Shown here: positions 1,092 through 9,211 of the stretch, piece after piece
How the letters are laid out: each line of letters begins with the position of its first letter
How positions within the stretch are numbered: position 1 is the stretch's first letter
Assembly (NCBI GenBank): GCA_018066715.1
Contig: JAGPWA010000132.1
Location: 1 to 36,482 of the forward strand
Source of the DNA: Porticoccus sp.
Lineage (GTDB): Bacteria; Pseudomonadota; Gammaproteobacteria; Pseudomonadales; Porticoccaceae
Direction: 5' to 3'
Length of the DNA stretch: 36,482 nucleotides
Program-made: the position numbers and the translations under genes
Notes under the pieces: model-generated
The model's input: the letters and a program-made list of their open reading frames with translations, nothing else
Databases searched by the model: none
What the model was told of the DNA's origin: nothing

Positions 1092-3209
1092 TTAGTTAGA
1101 TCTTATGGCAGATTTTTTAAGTGCTACTTTTGCCGGTGCACATTGCTGTGGATCGTTAATAATTACAATGCACTCCAGGCATTGAATGCATTCGTCGTAA
1201 TCGATCTCGCCAGTCTTTTTAATAGCATCAATTTCACAGCGGTGATGACAGAGTTGACAAGGGCTGCCGCATTCTTTGCGGCGAGTCAGCCATTCAAACA
1301 GTTTGAAATGGCCGAGTATTGCAAGGCCCGCTCCCAATGGGCAGACGTAGCGACAATAAAATTTATGGATGTAAAGGCCGATACCAAGAAGTAGTACGGC
1401 ATAGACTACAAAGGGCCAGTAGCGGATGAACGTCAGTGTGATGGCGGTTTTAAATGGCTCTATTTCGGCAGCCTTCTCAGCGTAGTTGAGTGAGTAAAAG
1501 CATAATCCAAGCAAGCTGAAAAGCAGCAGGTATTTGACTTTTAGTAGTCGTCGATGTAGGGCGTTAGGGATGTTGACCTGTTTAAGCCCAAGCCGCTTGG
1601 AGAGCCAAGACAGCATTTCCTGTAGGGCGCCAAAGGGACATAGCCAGCCACAAAATAATCCTCTTCCAAATAAAAATAAGGATATAAAAGTGTAAACCCA
1701 TAATATAAAAATAATCGGGTCTAATAGAAAAACACCGATATCAAAATCATTTCTTAGTCCCAGTAACACCGTAAATATATTGACGACCGATAATTGCCCT
1801 TGGGCATAAAAGCCAATGAACAACAGGGTGAAGATAAGAAAAGCCCAGCGAAAGCGGTGGAAAAATTTATGTTGACGGGTGAGTTTATGTTGCTTGATAA
1901 AGGCGATGGTCAGCAATGCTAGTGCGATAAGAAGAATTATTATCTGACCGCTGCGAGATTGCCAAATGCGTACCCACAGTTCTGTATTTTGCTCCGTGTT
2001 CTCTACTTTTACGACGTCAAAAAATCTTGCTGGCAGTGTGTAGTCATCATCAAAAGACACGCGGTCTGTTATTAGATGATTTTTGGCCAGTTCGATAATG
2101 AGTTGTAACTGCATGGGCGCGCTGGGGTCGAATCCAGCCTGGGGCCGAATGCGAAAGATGTGGAGGTTGTCGAGTTTTGGTGCTCCCGTCATCAGCGATA
2201 AGGCACCCATTTCGTAGAAGTTGGTATCCCGGATACTGATTGGCAGGCCATGTTGTACCAAGCTGATATGGGCGGGTACGGTGCCGGGTTTGAAGTCGTC
2301 CTTCAGATAGGAGTAAAACCCCTCCGACATGATAGCGAAGGCGTGTTCGCCCGGTTTTAGGCGGGCCATTAATTGCTGATATTCATGTCCTCCCAGCAAG
2401 TTTTGGCCGATAGTGGGAGGGTTGAGGTAGGCATAATAGAGTTCAATTTTATTCTTGCCAGTTTTATCGTCCGGGGTGTCTTTATCTAGGGTTTCATTGG
2501 TTAAGTTTAACCGTTGTGTTGGGTAATCATTCAGTGACCCATCCAGTGCAGTCTCCACTGTTGATCGATCAATGGTCCAGTGTCGCACCAGTTCAGAACT
2601 GAGCAAGGTGGGCCAGCTCATGTTTTCTAAGTGATCGAACTTTATGGTGGCGGGTGGCTGTTGAGCAAATTCAGCTAGTTTGCTTCGTGCAACTTTAAGT
2701 GCCGCATTCAGGATTGTGTCGTTGGCGACGATAACAGACACGGTAGCTTTGGTGACGCCATCGAGATAGGTGGCGCCGGTGTTGGTATGGCCCTTTTTTC
2801 GACCAACAATAAAACGGTCGGCGACAGAGTGTTGTTCATACTGGCGAAGGAATTCAAGCAGCGGTTTAGGTCCCAGACCATGCATAAAAATTGGTTCATG
2901 GTGGTGTAGTAATGACACACCAGTAAAGGTGCCCTGTGTATCGATACCAATTAGCAGGTTAATACGTTCACCTGAAAATCCAGGTAAATCTACGAGGTCA
3001 TTGCTTTCAAAGGCATAGCCAATAATTTCATTGAGTTGGTAAACCGGCCTGAGGGGTGCAGCGGGGTCTGCTGTCTTGTCACCAATAACGGTTGCCTTGG
3101 GGAACATCGTCTGAATCAGCTGATCAATCTGTGGCTCTTCGTCACACAGGGTAATGGGTGCCATCAAGGACAGATAGATCAGAAATATTGCGTGGAAAAT
3201 ATAGTTCAT
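1092..3209 (-). CDS. NosR/NirI-type membrane flavo-iron-sulfur protein
   Basis: Full-length NosR architecture (705 aa from ATG 3209, where a signal peptide MNYIFHAIFLIYL begins; a start at 3287 would add 26 unlikely residues and has no ribosome site). Order: signal peptide; periplasmic FMN-binding domain with DGVTKATVS at 150-158, where Thr156 sits where NosR carries covalent FMN; a second periplasmic domain typical of NosR; about six membrane helices; two CxxxCP motifs (CGWLCP, CRYVCP); and a C-terminal cytoplasmic two-cluster ferredoxin segment (CGSPCQLCHHRC and CIQCLEC...C). NosR passes electrons from the membrane to periplasmic partners and is needed for nitrous-oxide reductase maturation. 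No nosZ, nosD or other nos gene is in view, so the partner here is unknown. The central Gly of the usual flavinylation motif is Lys. It is divergent from a TonB receptor 225 bp away. Confidence 0.9.
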   Translation of the reverse strand: MNYIFHAIFLIYLSLMAPITLCDEEPQIDQLIQTMFPKATVIGDKTADPAAPLRPVYQLNEIIGYAFESNDLVDLPGFSGERINLLIGIDTQGTFTGVSLLHHHEPIFMHGLGPKPLLEFLRQYEQHSVADRFIVGRKKGHTNTGATYLDGVTKATVSVIVANDTILNAALKVARSKLAEFAQQPPATIKFDHLENMSWPTLLSSELVRHWTIDRSTVETALDGSLNDYPTQRLNLTNETLDKDTPDDKTGKNKIELYYAYLNPPTIGQNLLGGHEYQQLMARLKPGEHAFAIMSEGFYSYLKDDFKPGTVPAHISLVQHGLPISIRDTNFYEMGALSLMTGAPKLDNLHIFRIRPQAGFDPSAPMQLQLIIELAKNHLITDRVSFDDDYTLPARFFDVVKVENTEQNTELWVRIWQSRSGQIIILLIALALLTIAFIKQHKLTRQHKFFHRFRWAFLIFTLLFIGFYAQGQLSVVNIFTVLLGLRNDFDIGVFLLDPIIFILWVYTFISLFLFGRGLFCGWLCPFGALQEMLSWLSKRLGLKQVNIPNALHRRLLKVKYLLLFSLLGLCFYSLNYAEKAAEIEPFKTAITLTFIRYWPFVVYAVLLLGIGLYIHKFYCRYVCPLGAGLAILGHFKLFEWLTRRKECGSPCQLCHHRCEIDAIKKTGEIDYDECIQCLECIVIINDPQQCAPAKVALKKSAIRSN

Positions 3210-3371
3210 CCGTAACTGTCTTTCATTTCTGGCTTTCAGGCAATGCGCCTTTTGGCAGAGATGGTTGCTACCTTGGTAGTGCTGCATAGGTCAGTATTAT
3301 TCAATCTAAGGGTCTCATGGACGATCGTAGGCCCGCATGAGTTAATCAGAAGTCCTCTTGTTTATATCCAT

Positions 3372-3392
3372 CCTGCAGTTATTTTTTGCAGG
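3372..3392. promoter_or_regulatory. Inverted repeat in the nosR-like/TonB receptor divergent spacer
   Basis: CCTGCA at 3372-3377 and its perfect complement TGCAGG at 3387-3392 are separated by 9 A/T-rich bases, 41 bases before the TonB receptor start and 162 bases before the NosR-like start. The position fits an operator shared by the two divergent genes, but six-base arms are short and no regulator is identified. Confidence 0.3.
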
Positions 3393-3433
3393 CATGCTTG
3401 TCAGGTGTATTAGCCATCGAGAATATATAGAAG

Positions 3434-5752
3434 ATGTCAGGTCAAGATTCCAATTTTAGGATCCAGGGCAGTCGGTGTGTACGGTGGTTGTGTGCCCTGA
3501 TATTGGGTGCAGGTTTTTTGCCAGCTAAGGGCTTGGCCGAGGTTAATGAACCTGTGATGGAGTCTATCGTAGTGGTTGGCGTAGCGCCCATGAAGGGTAG
3601 TCTTGACACGAAAAGTCTTCCCTATGCGGTACAGGTGTTTGATGAGACGGAGTTAAATAAAAATGGTGTTTACTCTGTTGCTGAAATGTTGGCCGCCCGT
3701 GCTGGCAGCGTAACATTTAATTCAGCACAGAATAACCGTTTGCAACCAGACTTGCAGTTTCGCGGCTTTACAGCATCCCCGCTTCTTGGATTGCCTCAGG
3801 GTATCGCGGTGTATCAAAACGGAGTGCGGATTAACGAAACCTTTGGTGACAGTGTCAACTGGGATTTATTGCCTGCAAGTACCATTGATTCCTTACAGTT
3901 AGTAGCAGGTTCTAATCCAATTTATGGCCTAAATGCATTGGGTGGCGCCTTTGTAGTGCAGAGCAAGACCGGCTTTTCTTCGCCGGGAACCACAGTGAAG
4001 GTCGGCCTGGCATCTGAGAAGGTACGGGATGTTGCCATCACCACTGGAGGAGATCATGGTGATTGGGGATATTTCCTGGCGGTGGACAGTATGGAGGAAG
4101 AAGGTTGGCGCGATTTCTCTGAATCCCGAGCCTTAAATATCTATGCCACACTTGGCTGGAGAAGTGAAACGCAGGATCTAGATGTCTTCTTTAATGGTGC
4201 TGATACGAAGTTGCGGGGCAATGGTACGGTGCCGGAAGCATTATTGAATGAAAGGCGTGAGTCCGTTTTCACTCACCCGGACATTACTGAAAACCGGTTG
4301 GCTCAGATCAGTGCTTCCTATCGTCGGCGCTATGACTTTGGCTCGGAGTTGAGCGTCAATCTGTTTTATCGACGAAATACTACGGACAGTTTTAATGGTG
4401 ACGGGTCAGAATTCGAAGCGTGTGAGGCCCCGCTGGATGATCATTTTCTTTGTGATGAGGATGAATCCGAGTTGCTGAGAGATCAGTTTGGCAATCCGGT
4501 TTCTGCACAGTTGGATGCCATTAACAACCTGAGTCAGCGCCGGCAGCGCAGTGGCGGGTTGACCTCTCAATGGCTTCAACCTGTGGACTTGTGGGGGATA
4601 CCCCAGCAGATACTTTTTGGGGTTGATGTGCTCTTCGGTGATACAGATTTTGACTCCACCGTGGAATTTTCTTCCTTGACTGAGGACAGGGGTACTACCA
4701 CCAGCGGTCTTTTTGATCAAGAGGGGCGGACTGAAATGAAGGCTCGTAGTCGTACCTCCTCATTGTATGCCAGTGACTTATTGCATTTGAATGAGCGGCT
4801 AAGCCTGACGTTTTCAGCTCGTTACAATGATACTCAGGTCGAAAATCGTGACCAAAGTGGAGAGCGTCCCGAGTTGGACGGTCGTCATCGCTACAAACGG
4901 TTTAATGCAGGATTGGGGATGGTCTATCTTTGGTCAGATGATTTGTCGGTGTATGGTAATGTCCAGCAGTCGTCAAGAACGCCGACGCCGGTGGAGCTGG
5001 CCTGCTCACATGCCGATGCCCCCTGTAGTCTGCCCAACAGTTTTCTCGCTGATCCCCCTTTGGATGATGTGGTAGCACAGAGTGCCGAGTTTGGTTTGCG
5101 TGGTGAAAGTGATTATTTGGAACACTGGCGGGTCAGTTTGTTTTATTCCGTTAATCGTGATGACATTATTTTTCAGACTACTGGTGGTATCTCTTCCAAT
5201 CAGGGATTTTTTACCAATGCCTCCGATACGGTGAGAAAAGGGGTGGAGCTTGATTTGTCGGGTATTCATGACAAGTGGGTATGGTATCTCAACTATACGT
5301 ATTTACATGCGAGTTTTGCCGATAGCTTCTTATCCAGTACACCCAATCACCCCTCTGCTGTAGATGGTGTATTGATGGTTGACTCGGGTAGTCGTCTGCC
5401 AGGGCTTCCCGATCACAGTATGAAACTGGGGTTGGACTATACGCTGAGTGACCATGTGCAGCTTGGTTTTGAGGCACAGGCCAATAGTGGTCAATATTTG
5501 CGTGGTGATGAAGCTAATATTGATGACCGGATAGAGGGATATACACTATTGAATGTCTATGCTCGCTATCAATTTAGTGACAGTGTTTCGTTGAGTTTTA
5601 AAATCGATAACGCCTTCGATAAAGAGTACGAAACGTTTGGCCTGTATGGTCAGGCAGGTGAAATATTCGACGATCTTGGTGATGGTGGCGGGCGTTTTCT
5701 CAGTTCCGGTTCTCCACGTCAATACTGGTTATCTATTGAGATGAACTGGTAG
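3434..5752 (+). CDS. TonB-dependent outer-membrane receptor
   Basis: A 772-residue TonB-dependent receptor with an N-terminal signal peptide (cleavage near residue 35), a TonB-box-like ESIVVVGVA, a plug domain (about 50-175, with NRLQPDLQFRGF and the plug-end LGGAFVVQSKTG), and a 22-strand barrel ending in aromatic W, as needed for Omp85 insertion. These receptors take up scarce ligands such as metal chelates using the proton-motive force. The substrate is not evident. Two extracellular-loop-like segments carry Cys pairs: C330...C340 within a run of Asp/Glu (CEAPLDDHFLCDEDESE), and C524...C531 (CSHADAPC). The acidic loop suggests a cationic or metal ligand, which is inference. Divergent to the NosR-like gene. 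The ribosome site is weak. Confidence 0.93.
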   Translation: MSGQDSNFRIQGSRCVRWLCALILGAGFLPAKGLAEVNEPVMESIVVVGVAPMKGSLDTKSLPYAVQVFDETELNKNGVYSVAEMLAARAGSVTFNSAQNNRLQPDLQFRGFTASPLLGLPQGIAVYQNGVRINETFGDSVNWDLLPASTIDSLQLVAGSNPIYGLNALGGAFVVQSKTGFSSPGTTVKVGLASEKVRDVAITTGGDHGDWGYFLAVDSMEEEGWRDFSESRALNIYATLGWRSETQDLDVFFNGADTKLRGNGTVPEALLNERRESVFTHPDITENRLAQISASYRRRYDFGSELSVNLFYRRNTTDSFNGDGSEFEACEAPLDDHFLCDEDESELLRDQFGNPVSAQLDAINNLSQRRQRSGGLTSQWLQPVDLWGIPQQILFGVDVLFGDTDFDSTVEFSSLTEDRGTTTSGLFDQEGRTEMKARSRTSSLYASDLLHLNERLSLTFSARYNDTQVENRDQSGERPELDGRHRYKRFNAGLGMVYLWSDDLSVYGNVQQSSRTPTPVELACSHADAPCSLPNSFLADPPLDDVVAQSAEFGLRGESDYLEHWRVSLFYSVNRDDIIFQTTGGISSNQGFFTNASDTVRKGVELDLSGIHDKWVWYLNYTYLHASFADSFLSSTPNHPSAVDGVLMVDSGSRLPGLPDHSMKLGLDYTLSDHVQLGFEAQANSGQYLRGDEANIDDRIEGYTLLNVYARYQFSDSVSLSFKIDNAFDKEYETFGLYGQAGEIFDDLGDGGGRFLSSGSPRQYWLSIEMNW

Positions 5753-5817: not shown

Positions 5818-5964
5818 TTAATTTTGTGGGTTAAATGTGACCCAGGCATACCGAAACTGGTCATGCTTGATACTTTGGTAGTAGTTCCCTTTGCGTAGCC
5901 CCGCGTGAACAAAAGCAGTATCAAAATAGTCGTAATGTTCAATTGGCCAAAATATAAAAGTTGT
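5818..5964 (-). pseudogene. Decayed 3' end of an unidentified gene
   Basis: On the minus strand, 48 sense codons run from just after a TGA (5965-5967) to a TAA (5818-5820). There is no ATG, GTG or TTG start with a ribosome site in frame. The translation looks like folded-protein sequence: IEHYDYFDTAFVHAGLRKG followed by NYYQSIKHDQFRYAWVTF. It is rich in Tyr, Phe, Trp and His with balanced charged residues, unlike random A/T-rich spacer. I read it as the C-terminal remnant of a deleted gene. I cannot name the family. The alternative is a chance open frame of 49 codons. Confidence 0.4.
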
Positions 5965-6160: not shown

Positions 6161-7318
6161 ATGAATAAGACTAAATTATTGAAAAATTTATTGCCGGGGG
6201 CCTTGGGGTTGGCTGCGTGCATGCAAGCCAGTGCTGCAATTGAATTTTATGACAAGGACGATACAACGGTTTCTATCGATGCATCGTTCAATACTTTCTA
6301 TACCAGTACGAGCACAGATAATGACATCAGTGGTAATGACCGCGATCAGTCTCGCGTTAAAATGGGTTTTCTTCCAAACTGGGTTGGGTTCAACTTTAAG
6401 AAGAAAGTGGACGACCTAACATTTGGTGGTCGTGCCTCGTTTTGGGTGAGTATCAATGATAGTGATGAATCGCCAACGGATGGTTTGATCGATACTCGGC
6501 AATTTTATGGGACTGTTGATGGCGCTTTCGGGCAAGTTCTTTTTGGTAAGGATTTCACGCTGTTTAACCGTAGTAATGTCTTCAACGACGAGATTCTGTT
6601 GGGTTACGGCTGGGTTAACGACACTATCGGTTTAACAGATGGTAACAATGTATCCTTTGGTAATATCGGTAGTGGTTATATCTATCCATTACCTACCTCC
6701 CAGATTACCTATCGCACCCCCACTATCGGTGGCTTTAAGTTGGCGATTGGTATTATCGACCCCTCTCGCACCAATGGTGATGATGATGCTGAGGAAGAGG
6801 CGCCTCGGTTTGAAGGTGAGCTGACCTATAACACGGCATGGGACGACGGCACGTTGGCAGCTTGGGTTGGCGGTTTGCAGCAGTCCTCTTCAGGTAGCAC
6901 AACTAGTGATGTGGACTCTACCGGCGTTTCTTTCGGTGCTCGTGTGAAAATTGGTGGGCTGGCTCTGCATGCCTCCGGTTATGACGGCGAAGGGATAGGT
7001 ATGTTGATCGGCCCGGCTGATGCGCAAGGTCTTGGCCTTAGCAATCTTGTTGTCGAGAACGAAGATGAGATTGACAGCAGCGGTTGGTTGACTCAAGCCT
7101 CTTATACGATGGGGACTAATCGTCTGGCTCTCTCCTTCGGTCAGTCTGAAATTGATAATGCTGGTGATTGGGAAAATGAGACCAGGACAGTTGCTTGGTT
7201 TCACCGCATCAACAGTACCTTCACCACCGCGGTTGAATTCACCCAAAACGAATTTGAAATTGGTGGCGATACTGAAGAAGCAGATACTTTTGGCATTGGC
7301 TTGATTGTTAATTTCTAA
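6161..7318 (+). CDS. Outer-membrane porin (general, Gram-negative porin family)
   Basis: 385 residues: a Lys-rich signal peptide cleaved after ASA (about residue 25), then a mature beta-barrel with alternating hydrophobic strands and long Gly/Asp/Ser-rich loops. Typical trimeric-porin segments include QFYGTVDGAFGQVLFGKDF and the C-terminal strand TFGIGLIVNF ending in Phe. The mature part is strongly acidic, common in marine bacteria. It would allow passive diffusion of small hydrophilic solutes. It has a good ribosome site and its own terminator (7346-7384), so it is probably a monocistronic, highly expressed gene. Its position between the TonB receptor and the acetaldehyde dehydrogenase might tie it to substrate entry, but that is inference. 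Confidence 0.9.
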   Translation: MNKTKLLKNLLPGALGLAACMQASAAIEFYDKDDTTVSIDASFNTFYTSTSTDNDISGNDRDQSRVKMGFLPNWVGFNFKKKVDDLTFGGRASFWVSINDSDESPTDGLIDTRQFYGTVDGAFGQVLFGKDFTLFNRSNVFNDEILLGYGWVNDTIGLTDGNNVSFGNIGSGYIYPLPTSQITYRTPTIGGFKLAIGIIDPSRTNGDDDAEEEAPRFEGELTYNTAWDDGTLAAWVGGLQQSSSGSTTSDVDSTGVSFGARVKIGGLALHASGYDGEGIGMLIGPADAQGLGLSNLVVENEDEIDSSGWLTQASYTMGTNRLALSFGQSEIDNAGDWENETRTVAWFHRINSTFTTAVEFTQNEFEIGGDTEEADTFGIGLIVNF

Positions 7319-7690: not shown

Positions 7691-9211
7691 ATGATATATG
7701 CACAACCTGGTGAAGATGGCTCCATTGTTACATTTAAAACCCGGTATGATAACTTTATTGGTGGTGCCTGGGTGCCGCCTGTAGATGGTCAGTATTTTGA
7801 AAATATAAGTCCGGTTACAGGGCAACCTTTTTGTGAGGTGGCTCGCTCTACAGATGCTGATATTGAAAAAGCACTAGATGCAGCGCATGAGGCTAAAGAT
7901 AGTTGGGGCAAAAGCTCAGTAACAGAACGCTCTAATATATTATTAAAAATTGCTGATAGAGTTGAACAAAATCTGGAATTATTGGCTGTTGCTGAAACAT
8001 GGGAAAATGGTAAAGGTGTTCGTGAGACATTGAATGCCGATATTCCATTATTTGTGGATCACTTTCGTTATTTTGCTGGTTGTATCCGTGCTCAGGAAGG
8101 TTCTGCTGCAGACATCGGCGGCAATACCGTTAGCTATCATTTCCATGAACCTCTCGGTGTGGTTGGACAGATTATACCCTGGAACTTCCCACTGCTGATG
8201 GCTGCCTGGAAATTAGCGCCAGCACTGGCTGCGGGTAACTGTGTGGTGATGAAACCAGCAGAGCAAACTCCAGTCAGTATTCTCGTCCTCATCGAGTTAA
8301 TTCAGGATTTGTTGCCACCAGGTATATTAAACATTGTTAATGGATTTGGTAGGGAAGCTGGAGTGGCATTAGCTAGCAGTAGTCGTATTGCCAAGATTGC
8401 ATTTACTGGTTCCACACCAGTTGGTGTTGAGATTCTGAAATGTGCTGCAAACAGCTTGATTCCTTCGACAGTAGAGCTAGGTGGTAAATCTCCCAATATT
8501 TTCTTTGAAGATATTATGGATCAGGAAGAGGATTACATTAGCAAATGTGTTGAGGGGCTGTTGCTAGGCTTCTTTAATCAGGGTGAAGTCTGTACCTGTC
8601 CCTCTCGCGCGCTGGTTCAGGAATCCATTTATGATAAGTTTATGGAGCGAGTGCTGAAACGTGCTGCGGAGATTATCCAGGGCAACCCACTAGATACCGA
8701 TACAATGGTCGGTGCGCAGGTTTCACAAGAGCAACTGGATAGAGTTCTCGGATATCTGGATATTGGTGTCGAAGAAGGAGCTGAAGTATTGGTTGGCGGT
8801 TCTCGCAATGTATTGGAGGGCAATCTATCCGGTGGCTATTATGTTAAGCCGACCTTGATGAAAGGTACCAACGACATGCGTATCTTCCAGGAAGAAATCT
8901 TTGGACCTGCATTGTCCATCACTACCTTTAAGGATGAGGCTGAAGCATTGGCTATTGCTAATGATACCGAATATGGTCTTGGTGCCGGTCTTTGGACTCG
9001 TGATATGAATCGGGCTTACCGTATGGGTCGTGCTATACAGGCTGGACGAGTGTGGACTAATTGTTATCATGCTTATCCAGCGCATGCCGCATTTGGTGGT
9101 TACAAGAGGTCTGGTATTGGACGTGAAAATCATAAAATGATGTTGGATCATTACCAGCAGACCAAGAATTTATTGGTTAGCTATGAGATTGATCCACTGG
9201 GTTTCTTCTAG
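7691..9211 (+). CDS. exaC: NAD-dependent acetaldehyde dehydrogenase, ExaC/AldB type
   Basis: 506 residues, the same length as I recall for Pseudomonas ExaC, and matching it through most of the protein (for example [24 protein letters not shown], the end [14 protein letters not shown]). It oxidises acetaldehyde to acetate with NAD+ in the cytoplasm during growth on ethanol or related alcohols. Catalytic residues are present: Asn165 in PWNF, Lys188 in MKPAEQ, Glu262 in VELGGK, and the nucleophile Cys301 in QGEVCT. Ribosome site AAGAGGT upstream. In Pseudomonas it acts after the PQQ ethanol dehydrogenase ExaA and before acetyl-CoA synthetase. acs lies 7 kb away in the same orientation, but exaA is not in this window. 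The gene is more A/T-rich in its first third than its neighbours. Confidence 0.93.

Follow-up and report, generated by a model that had tools for sequence, protein, structure and literature searches.

A NosR-type flavoprotein clade associated with PQQ-dependent alcohol oxidation in gammaproteobacteria

The 36,482-nucleotide stretch of Porticoccus sp. DNA analysed here (contig JAGPWA010000132.1 of assembly GCA_018066715.1; hereafter the window) is confirmed to encode, on its minus strand, a complete NosR-type protein, which we call NosR2; its clade is referred to as R2. We show that the genes of this clade lie in, or share genomes with, the system formed by pyrroloquinoline quinone (PQQ) alcohol dehydrogenase, the pqq genes and ExaC-type acetaldehyde dehydrogenase. 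We tentatively propose that the dedicated role of NosR2 is electron transfer in periplasmic alcohol oxidation that depends on PQQ and is probably of the lanthanide type. A link of this gene to PQQ alcohol oxidation and lanthanide supply had been suggested in an original prediction, made from the sequence alone, and is well supported by the co-occurrence and neighbourhood data given below.

The association is most evident at the level of whole genomes. In a sample of 194 genomes of the order, all eight NosR2 carriers contain pqqC, versus 40 of the 194 overall (hypergeometric 1.8e-6), and all eight encode an alcohol dehydrogenase with 70% or more identity to that of the window's genome, versus 16 of the 194 (3e-10). 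The DxD motif, read from the search loci, is present in all 16 of these dehydrogenases. Among the 40 pqqC-positive genomes, NosR2 occurs in eight of the 15 that have this dehydrogenase and in none of the 25 that lack it (p=8e-5). It should be noted that the carriers are related, so that these p-values overstate independence and are a guide only. In a class-wide sample of 369 genomes, NosR2 was found in four, two of which also belong to the order sample, and all four have pqqC, versus 52 of the 369; in two of these carriers (G535 and G337) the dehydrogenase is absent from the surroundings of pqqC, the only place where it was looked for. The same pattern is seen within families. In the family of the window's genome (f1), NosR2 and pqqC are found in that genome only, and six relatives have neither. 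In family f20, three carriers are pqqC-positive and three genomes with only canonical NosR are pqqC-negative, and in family f24 two carriers are pqqC-positive and the five other genomes seen have neither NosR2 nor pqqC; both families may have members beyond those listed. Among four control genomes with canonical NosR only, two contain pqqC. Many of the carrier genera are presumably marine, judged by their names.

The gene neighbourhoods point in the same direction. At least one core gene (ExaC, pqqB, pqqC, pqqD, pqqE or alcohol dehydrogenase) lies within 10 kb of NosR2 in 31 of 70 named R2 loci, with two or more in 21, versus none of 10 canonical NosR loci; 13 of the 70 loci are shorter than 19 kb, and some are cut by contig ends. 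The gene exaC is directly upstream of NosR2 on the same strand in 15 loci, and pqqB directly downstream in six. Vibrio, Grimontia and Shewanella have, on one strand, the genes for cytochrome c550, a binding protein, alcohol dehydrogenase, ExaC, NosR2, pqqB and pqqC, and in some other R2 loci NosR2 stands apart from exaC, pqqB and the dehydrogenase gene. The latter is within 10 kb of NosR2 in 17 of the 70 loci, the window not being one of them. The flanks of 24 loci contain pqq genes or a DxD-type dehydrogenase (four of them, L057, L061, L098 and L099, show the dehydrogenase and no pqq gene), and of the 46 carriers without either nearby, 42 have pqqC elsewhere in the genome. The survey of neighbourhoods for which the original prediction had called bears out the proximity to PQQ and ExaC genes, whereas the pairing with a TonB-dependent receptor, which it had also asked to be surveyed, turned out to be narrow (six of 73 loci; see below). 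In two carriers, Paraglaciecola chathamensis (L107) and Motiliproteus (L078), NosR2 is located by ExaC, FIST and hybrid-kinase genes and the genome gave no match to pqqC; it is possible that these bacteria use scavenged PQQ.

The PQQ system of the window's own genome is encoded on another contig, C29, which carries acs, a DxD-type alcohol dehydrogenase, a binding protein, the cytochrome c550 PedF, PQQ-system ATP-binding cassette (ABC) proteins (a binding protein, a beta-propeller protein, an ATPase and a PedC-type permease), a LuxR-type regulator, a hybrid kinase, NosP, PqqE, PqqC and PqqB. Acs, the dehydrogenase, PedF, the ABC proteins, NosP, PqqB, PqqC and PqqE score above their NCBIfam cut-offs; the binding protein listed between the dehydrogenase and PedF has no family match. 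An acs gene had been placed close to NosR2 in the original prediction. None was found in the window, which has no unassigned open reading frame (ORF) of that size; an acs gene sits beside the PQQ alcohol dehydrogenase on C29. This dehydrogenase (TIGR03075, 788.8 bits versus a cut-off of 480) has the motif GWDYDGVNE, whose DxD we take to include the extra metal-binding aspartate. The position of that aspartate is occupied by Ser in PedE and by Asp in PedH (PMC5487730). DxD-type enzymes are thus presumably lanthanide-dependent. The gene set resembles the Pseudomonas ped/exa cluster (PMC12997753) in that PedF, the PedC-type permease, the PQQ-system ABC proteins and NosP are found above their cut-offs, and, by product type only, in its porin, hybrid kinase, LuxR regulator and PedG-like binding protein. 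As a difference, the main text of that paper contains no mention of NosR, FMN, 4Fe-4S or ferredoxin.

A short motif provides further, supportive evidence. The small palindrome that had been noticed in the promoter region shared by NosR2 and the receptor gene is CTACCTTGGTAG, and further copies of its core lie before the porin gene (5871) and on C29, in the promoter between the cytochrome c550/alcohol dehydrogenase genes and the ABC genes. In 85 loci, TACYTTRGTA occurs 15 times, of which 12 are intergenic versus three coding, the non-coding share of this DNA being 14%. Ten of the 12 intergenic sites adjoin a gene for a dehydrogenase, cytochrome, ABC protein, ExaC, receptor, porin, regulator or NosR2, including the unlinked NosR2 of Amphritea (L076), and two (L117 and L118) adjoin none of the PQQ-locus gene types; the 12 include the near-duplicate pairs L057/L061, L066/L068, L086/L097 and L117/L118. 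One of six control patterns also leaned towards intergenic DNA (3/5, p=0.02). The motif was picked from the data on which it was tested, so that its own p-value is descriptive, and the core is unspecific at the genome level, exact TACYTTGGTA giving 26 matches versus 16 for the reversed pattern. For both reasons we consider a putative operator common to NosR2 and PQQ-related genes as supportive only. Of the 20 genome matches that were examined, four are intergenic or just upstream of a start, and three of those four are at this regulon; the site at 3269, one of the four, falls inside the longest NosR2 ORF and upstream of its likely start.

NosR2 has the architecture that had been claimed for it. 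Pfam places FMN_bind, a flavin mononucleotide (FMN) domain, at residues 106-187 and Fer4_5 at residues 523-569, and an alignment of 50 family members shows that D176, T182, the two CxxxCP motifs of the membrane-helix part (C546/C550 and C645/C649) and the eight ferredoxin-type cysteines at the C-terminal end (C673, C677, C680, C684, C700, C703, C706 and C716) are invariant. The sequence DGVTKAT around D176 and T182 we take to be a flavinylation-type motif. The window's genome has one gene for ApbE, and T182 is the candidate acceptor. The AlphaFold model (mean predicted local distance difference test (pLDDT) score 84, predicted template modelling score 0.74) has an FMN domain of the RnfG/NqrC fold type (Z about 10-15); the middle periplasmic domain (about residues 221-424) gave weak structure matches alone (Z about 5 or less), and no match beyond the FMN domain stood out in the comparison with solved structures. 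The true start is likely the ATG at 3209, which encodes residue 27 of the longest reading and marks the beginning of a signal-peptide-like segment; this signal-like N-terminus suggests that the FMN domain is extracytosolic. With this start, the region shared with the receptor gene has the 224 bp that had been predicted; measured from the longest ORF, it has 146 bp. As a PF12801 membrane protein with an N-terminal FMN_bind domain, NosR2 fits the definition of flavinylated NapH-like proteins given in PMC8238504.

NosR2 shares with NosR (NF046105) the full domain plan, all 12 cysteines and the flavinylation-type threonine, and it differs in its score (680.6 bits over residues 52-721, below the cut-off of 1000), its clade, the residues near FMN and the lack of a detected NosZ in the genome. 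In a 103-row tree made by a quick method, R2 is shown as separate from the other NosR proteins compared, with a Shimodaira-Hasegawa-like approximate likelihood ratio test value of 100 and a stem of 0.51 changes per column. The canonical rows were labelled by score, and NosZ adjacency was seen in seven of the 10 named ones and in some unnamed ones. While the 12 cysteines are kept in both groups, R2 consistently has F134, H136, L138 and G139 near FMN, versus L, V, I and P in canonical NosR; G139 is found in 96% of R2, versus proline throughout the canonical rows compared. In three genomes both types are present, with a single gene for each. Four borderline matches with 41-42% identity (from G316, G253, G526 and G348) were counted as canonical, since a NosZ-like gene adjoins them. 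Besides its 51 R2 rows, the clade contains the very divergent NosR-type protein L149 (genome G493, pqqC-positive), which is canonical by bit score and sits inside R2 on a long branch (1.32) that the tree program flags together with the long branch L120; it was left out of all counts. Other NosR-type groups on long stems, namely L036, L037 and L038 and a 13-row group around L033-L161, belong neither to R2 nor to the main set of canonical rows.

The original prediction would have been refuted by a nosZ gene elsewhere in the genome together with a grouping of the protein inside canonical NosR; the protein groups outside, and no NosZ was found. The assembly (2.33 Mb in 153 contigs, 96% complete) gave no match at E<=1e-40 with a clade I query, clade III lactonase-type NosZ (NF052460) not having been searched genome-wide. 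The query, a clade I protein of the twin-arginine translocation type (1052.5 bits on TIGR04244), matched all nine positive-control genomes, and a very distant NosZ could be missed with it. The Pfam model nos_propeller matched neither the genome nor its controls and was discarded in favour of the full NosZ protein as query, and the beta-propeller protein on C29 scores 119.9 on NF052460, versus a cut-off of 700. NosZ was found in 22 of the 47 distinct NosR2 genomes searched and not in the other 25 (48 handles; L012 and L059, from G019 and G561, have identical NosR2, represent one genome counted once here, and contribute both to the order sample and to the set of 70 named loci). No member of the NosZ cluster is present in any clustered R2 locus. 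The presence of NosR2 thus does not require nosZ. The resemblance of R2 proteins to NosR is sufficient for them to be mistaken for it, which would wrongly suggest nitrous oxide reduction in bacteria without nosZ. The sole other NosR-family gene found in the window's genome encodes a shorter, NirI-like protein on contig C127. It forms part of a denitrification-type cluster (L004:760-18528) with NirJ above its cut-off and nirS identified by eye; with this cluster and no NosZ found, the organism is a probable partial denitrifier.

NosR has been described as having a periplasmic FMN and cytoplasmic clusters (PMC7660919). Reports on NosR and the conserved residues make transmembrane electron transfer the most likely activity of NosR2. 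In the mechanism that we favour, T182 would receive its FMN from ApbE at the periplasmic face. Electrons would be exchanged among this FMN, the CxxxCP region in the membrane and two [4Fe-4S] clusters on the cytoplasmic side. The reduced dehydrogenase or its cytochrome c550 would deliver electrons through NosR2 to the quinone pool, with NosR2 serving as a second outlet in addition to cytochrome c550. The receptor, the porin and ExaC would belong to the same regulon. Given the link to alcohol oxidation, this direction of flow is, by a little, the likelier one. The working potential of PQQ enzymes may be lower with a lanthanide than with calcium, which would favour delivery of the electrons to the quinone pool. 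Since most of these loci keep cytochrome c550, its replacement is not the rule in the R2 clade, and NosR2 looks like an extra electron route.

Several observations weigh against this proposal, in addition to the relatedness of the carriers. NosR, the best-studied relative, probably passes electrons in the opposite direction, towards a reductase in the periplasm (PMC7660919). Half of the genomes of the order with the same dehydrogenase type (8 of 16) do without NosR2, and pqqC gave no match in four of the 46 searched genomes of carriers without such genes nearby (L078, L092, L102 and L107). No core PQQ/ExaC gene lies within 10 kb of NosR2 in 39 of the 70 loci, and the genes for NosR2 and the dehydrogenase are not neighbours in the window's genome. 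Of the 17 loci in which the dehydrogenase is near NosR2, 16 keep cytochrome c550, and the remaining one, L114, has no DxD motif either. Cytochrome c550 is also present in the window's genome, as PedF above cut-off, and it was labelled around the dehydrogenase in four of six stretches from genomes with NosR2 and likewise in four of six from genomes without it, so that its presence does not vary with that of NosR2. There is therefore another outlet, and the enzyme need not rely on NosR2 as the sole one. Finally, lanthanide use was read from a sequence motif only.

With cytochrome c550 already an outlet, the flow could instead be outward, as in NosR: electrons from quinol or a cytoplasmic donor would reach the periplasm and serve there in the maturation, repair or reductive activation of the PQQ system. 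The target could be the enzyme itself or its vicinal disulphide, the PQQ cofactor, or a metal, for example Ce(IV). This role, which we regard as possible though doubtful, comes close behind the second-outlet proposal. Its characterised relatives NosR and PceC serve periplasmic reductase systems, NosR being placed as electron donor, NosR2 directly precedes pqqB in the six loci mentioned above, and it tracks the DxD-type enzyme and not PQQ synthesis in general. Against this, the half of the genomes with the same enzyme type that do without NosR2 count here as well, and we know of no reductive step for PQQ alcohol dehydrogenases. An unlikely form of the same idea is that lanthanide/PQQ oxidation has its own redox maturation or recycling step, in which NosR2 sends quinol electrons out to the enzyme, the cofactor or the metal supply; the receptor that shares its promoter in one subclade would then be dedicated to lanthanide complexes or PQQ.

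A function in signalling, in which NosR2 would report the redox state to a FIST/hybrid-kinase/LuxR system controlling the locus, is quite improbable. A FIST gene is directly downstream on the same strand in eight loci, that of the window's genome scores above the cut-off as the nitric-oxide sensor NosP, hybrid-kinase and LuxR-regulator genes are common nearby, and NosR affects nosZ transcription (PMC7660919); however, the full set of electron-transfer cysteines is strictly conserved, and many loci show none of these regulators nearby. Less probable still is the arrangement put forward in the original prediction, a unit in which a ligand taken up through the TonB receptor would undergo reduction by NosR2 in the periplasm. 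The divergent pairing, kept in six loci of one subclade, and the shared promoter with its recurring palindrome are real, but such a unit is not supported as the core function: in 67 of the 73 loci no receptor orthologue was found beside NosR2 (more distant relatives lie further off in five, and some loci are cut by contig ends), and NosR2 is directly adjoined by exaC or pqqB more often than by a receptor. That NosR2 is a displaced NosR still serving nitrous oxide reduction is hardly credible, despite its domain plan, its match to the NosR model and the denitrification-type cluster with NirJ in the genome. No NosZ was found there, fewer than half of the NosR2 genomes searched have one, canonical NosR adjoins nosZ where this was looked at and groups apart, and three genomes carry both types; the clade data already contradict this explanation.

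The general link between NosR-like proteins and ExaA is already in print. Meheust et al. (2021, PMC8238504) describe a NapH-like flavoprotein that clusters with the ethanol oxidase ExaA in 172 genomes, and propose that it carries the electrons of the enzyme where cytochrome c does elsewhere. These systems resemble NosR2 in the Fer4_5 membrane protein with an N-terminal FMN domain and in the gene tie to a PQQ alcohol oxidase. They differ in that replacement of cytochrome c is proposed there, whereas c550 is usually kept in the NosR2 clade, and NosR2 represents one gammaproteobacterial clade that goes with DxD-type enzymes and tracks PQQ even when unlinked. Literature searches for NosR with PQQ, lanthanide or TonB brought up only this paper as an earlier report of the link. 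In these searches, no description came up of the distinct clade, its dependence on the DxD-type enzyme, its persistence in unlinked form, the conservation of the cytochrome, the pairing with the receptor or the operator-like site in common. The R2 clade would give PQQ- and lanthanide-dependent alcohol oxidation a specific membrane redox partner.

The pairing of NosR2 with the receptor is real but narrow, and the receptor is not its main partner. Receptor orthologues (46-50% identity) are divergent to NosR2 in the window, L039, L040, L054, L055 and L090, and the NosR2 proteins so paired that were placed in the tree form one subclade; distant relatives of the receptor (34-35%, 456-477 bits) occur in PQQ loci of Alteromonas and Colwellia, and no other receptor encoded by a long ORF of the fetched DNA reaches 100 bits. 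The best solved-structure matches of the receptor family by sequence are to PqqU/YncD, the TonB-dependent PQQ importer (100 and 99 bits versus 61 for the next). In the Foldseek search with the weak receptor model (pLDDT 65), PqqU/YncD is second, in a ranking that fails to separate PqqU from siderophore receptors. An assignment as PqqU was rejected: the receptor scores 79.7 on NF041535, versus a cut-off of 1200, and the position of the aromatic Y99, a signature residue of PqqU (PMC12124388), is a Leu that is invariant in nine sequences; the region of PqqU R304 and R365 is outside the alignment obtained. From its context, the receptor most likely imports lanthanide complexes or PQQ. The outer-membrane step of lanthanide transport in P. 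putida has been called unresolved (PMC12997753, 2026), and the receptor paired with NosR2 offers a concrete candidate for lanthanide or PQQ transport across the outer membrane.

The positions of the features in the window are collected in Table 1. The three genes that had been named as the next ones, for the receptor, a porin and an acetaldehyde dehydrogenase, were all identified, ExaC above its cut-off.

Table 1. Features of the window around NosR2
Feature	Position	Strand	Basis and remarks
NosR2, NosR-type transmembrane FMN/iron-sulphur protein	1092..3287	-	731-aa ORF; Pfam, NCBIfam, alignment, AlphaFold
Shared divergent promoter region	3210..3433		224 bp if NosR2 starts at 3209
Palindrome CTACCTTGGTAG	3268..3279		TACYTTRGTA core recurs between genes of relatives' PQQ loci
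TonB-dependent receptor	3434..5752	+	Pfam/NCBIfam; divergent pairing of orthologues with NosR2 in Zhongshania, Pseudomaricurvus, G192 and G123; PQQ loci of Alteromonas and Colwellia have more distant relatives
Second operator-like core TACTTTGGTA, between receptor and porin	5871..5880	+	Motif scan
Porin_4 family porin	6161..7318	+	Pfam; keeps its place beside the receptor in the five closest loci
ExaC-type acetaldehyde dehydrogenase	7691..9211	+	NCBIfam, 953.5 bits, cut-off 900

Two minor observations can be added. An ORF of 196 aa at 422-1012, convergent with NosR2, has no Pfam or NCBIfam match. In the window's genome (G000), the perfect palindrome CTACTACCAAGGTAGTAG is located at position 9035 of contig C37, 123 bp upstream of a gene for a NarK-type transporter identified by eye; since it has the same core as the motif of the PQQ loci, the regulator of that motif may touch nitrate transport too.

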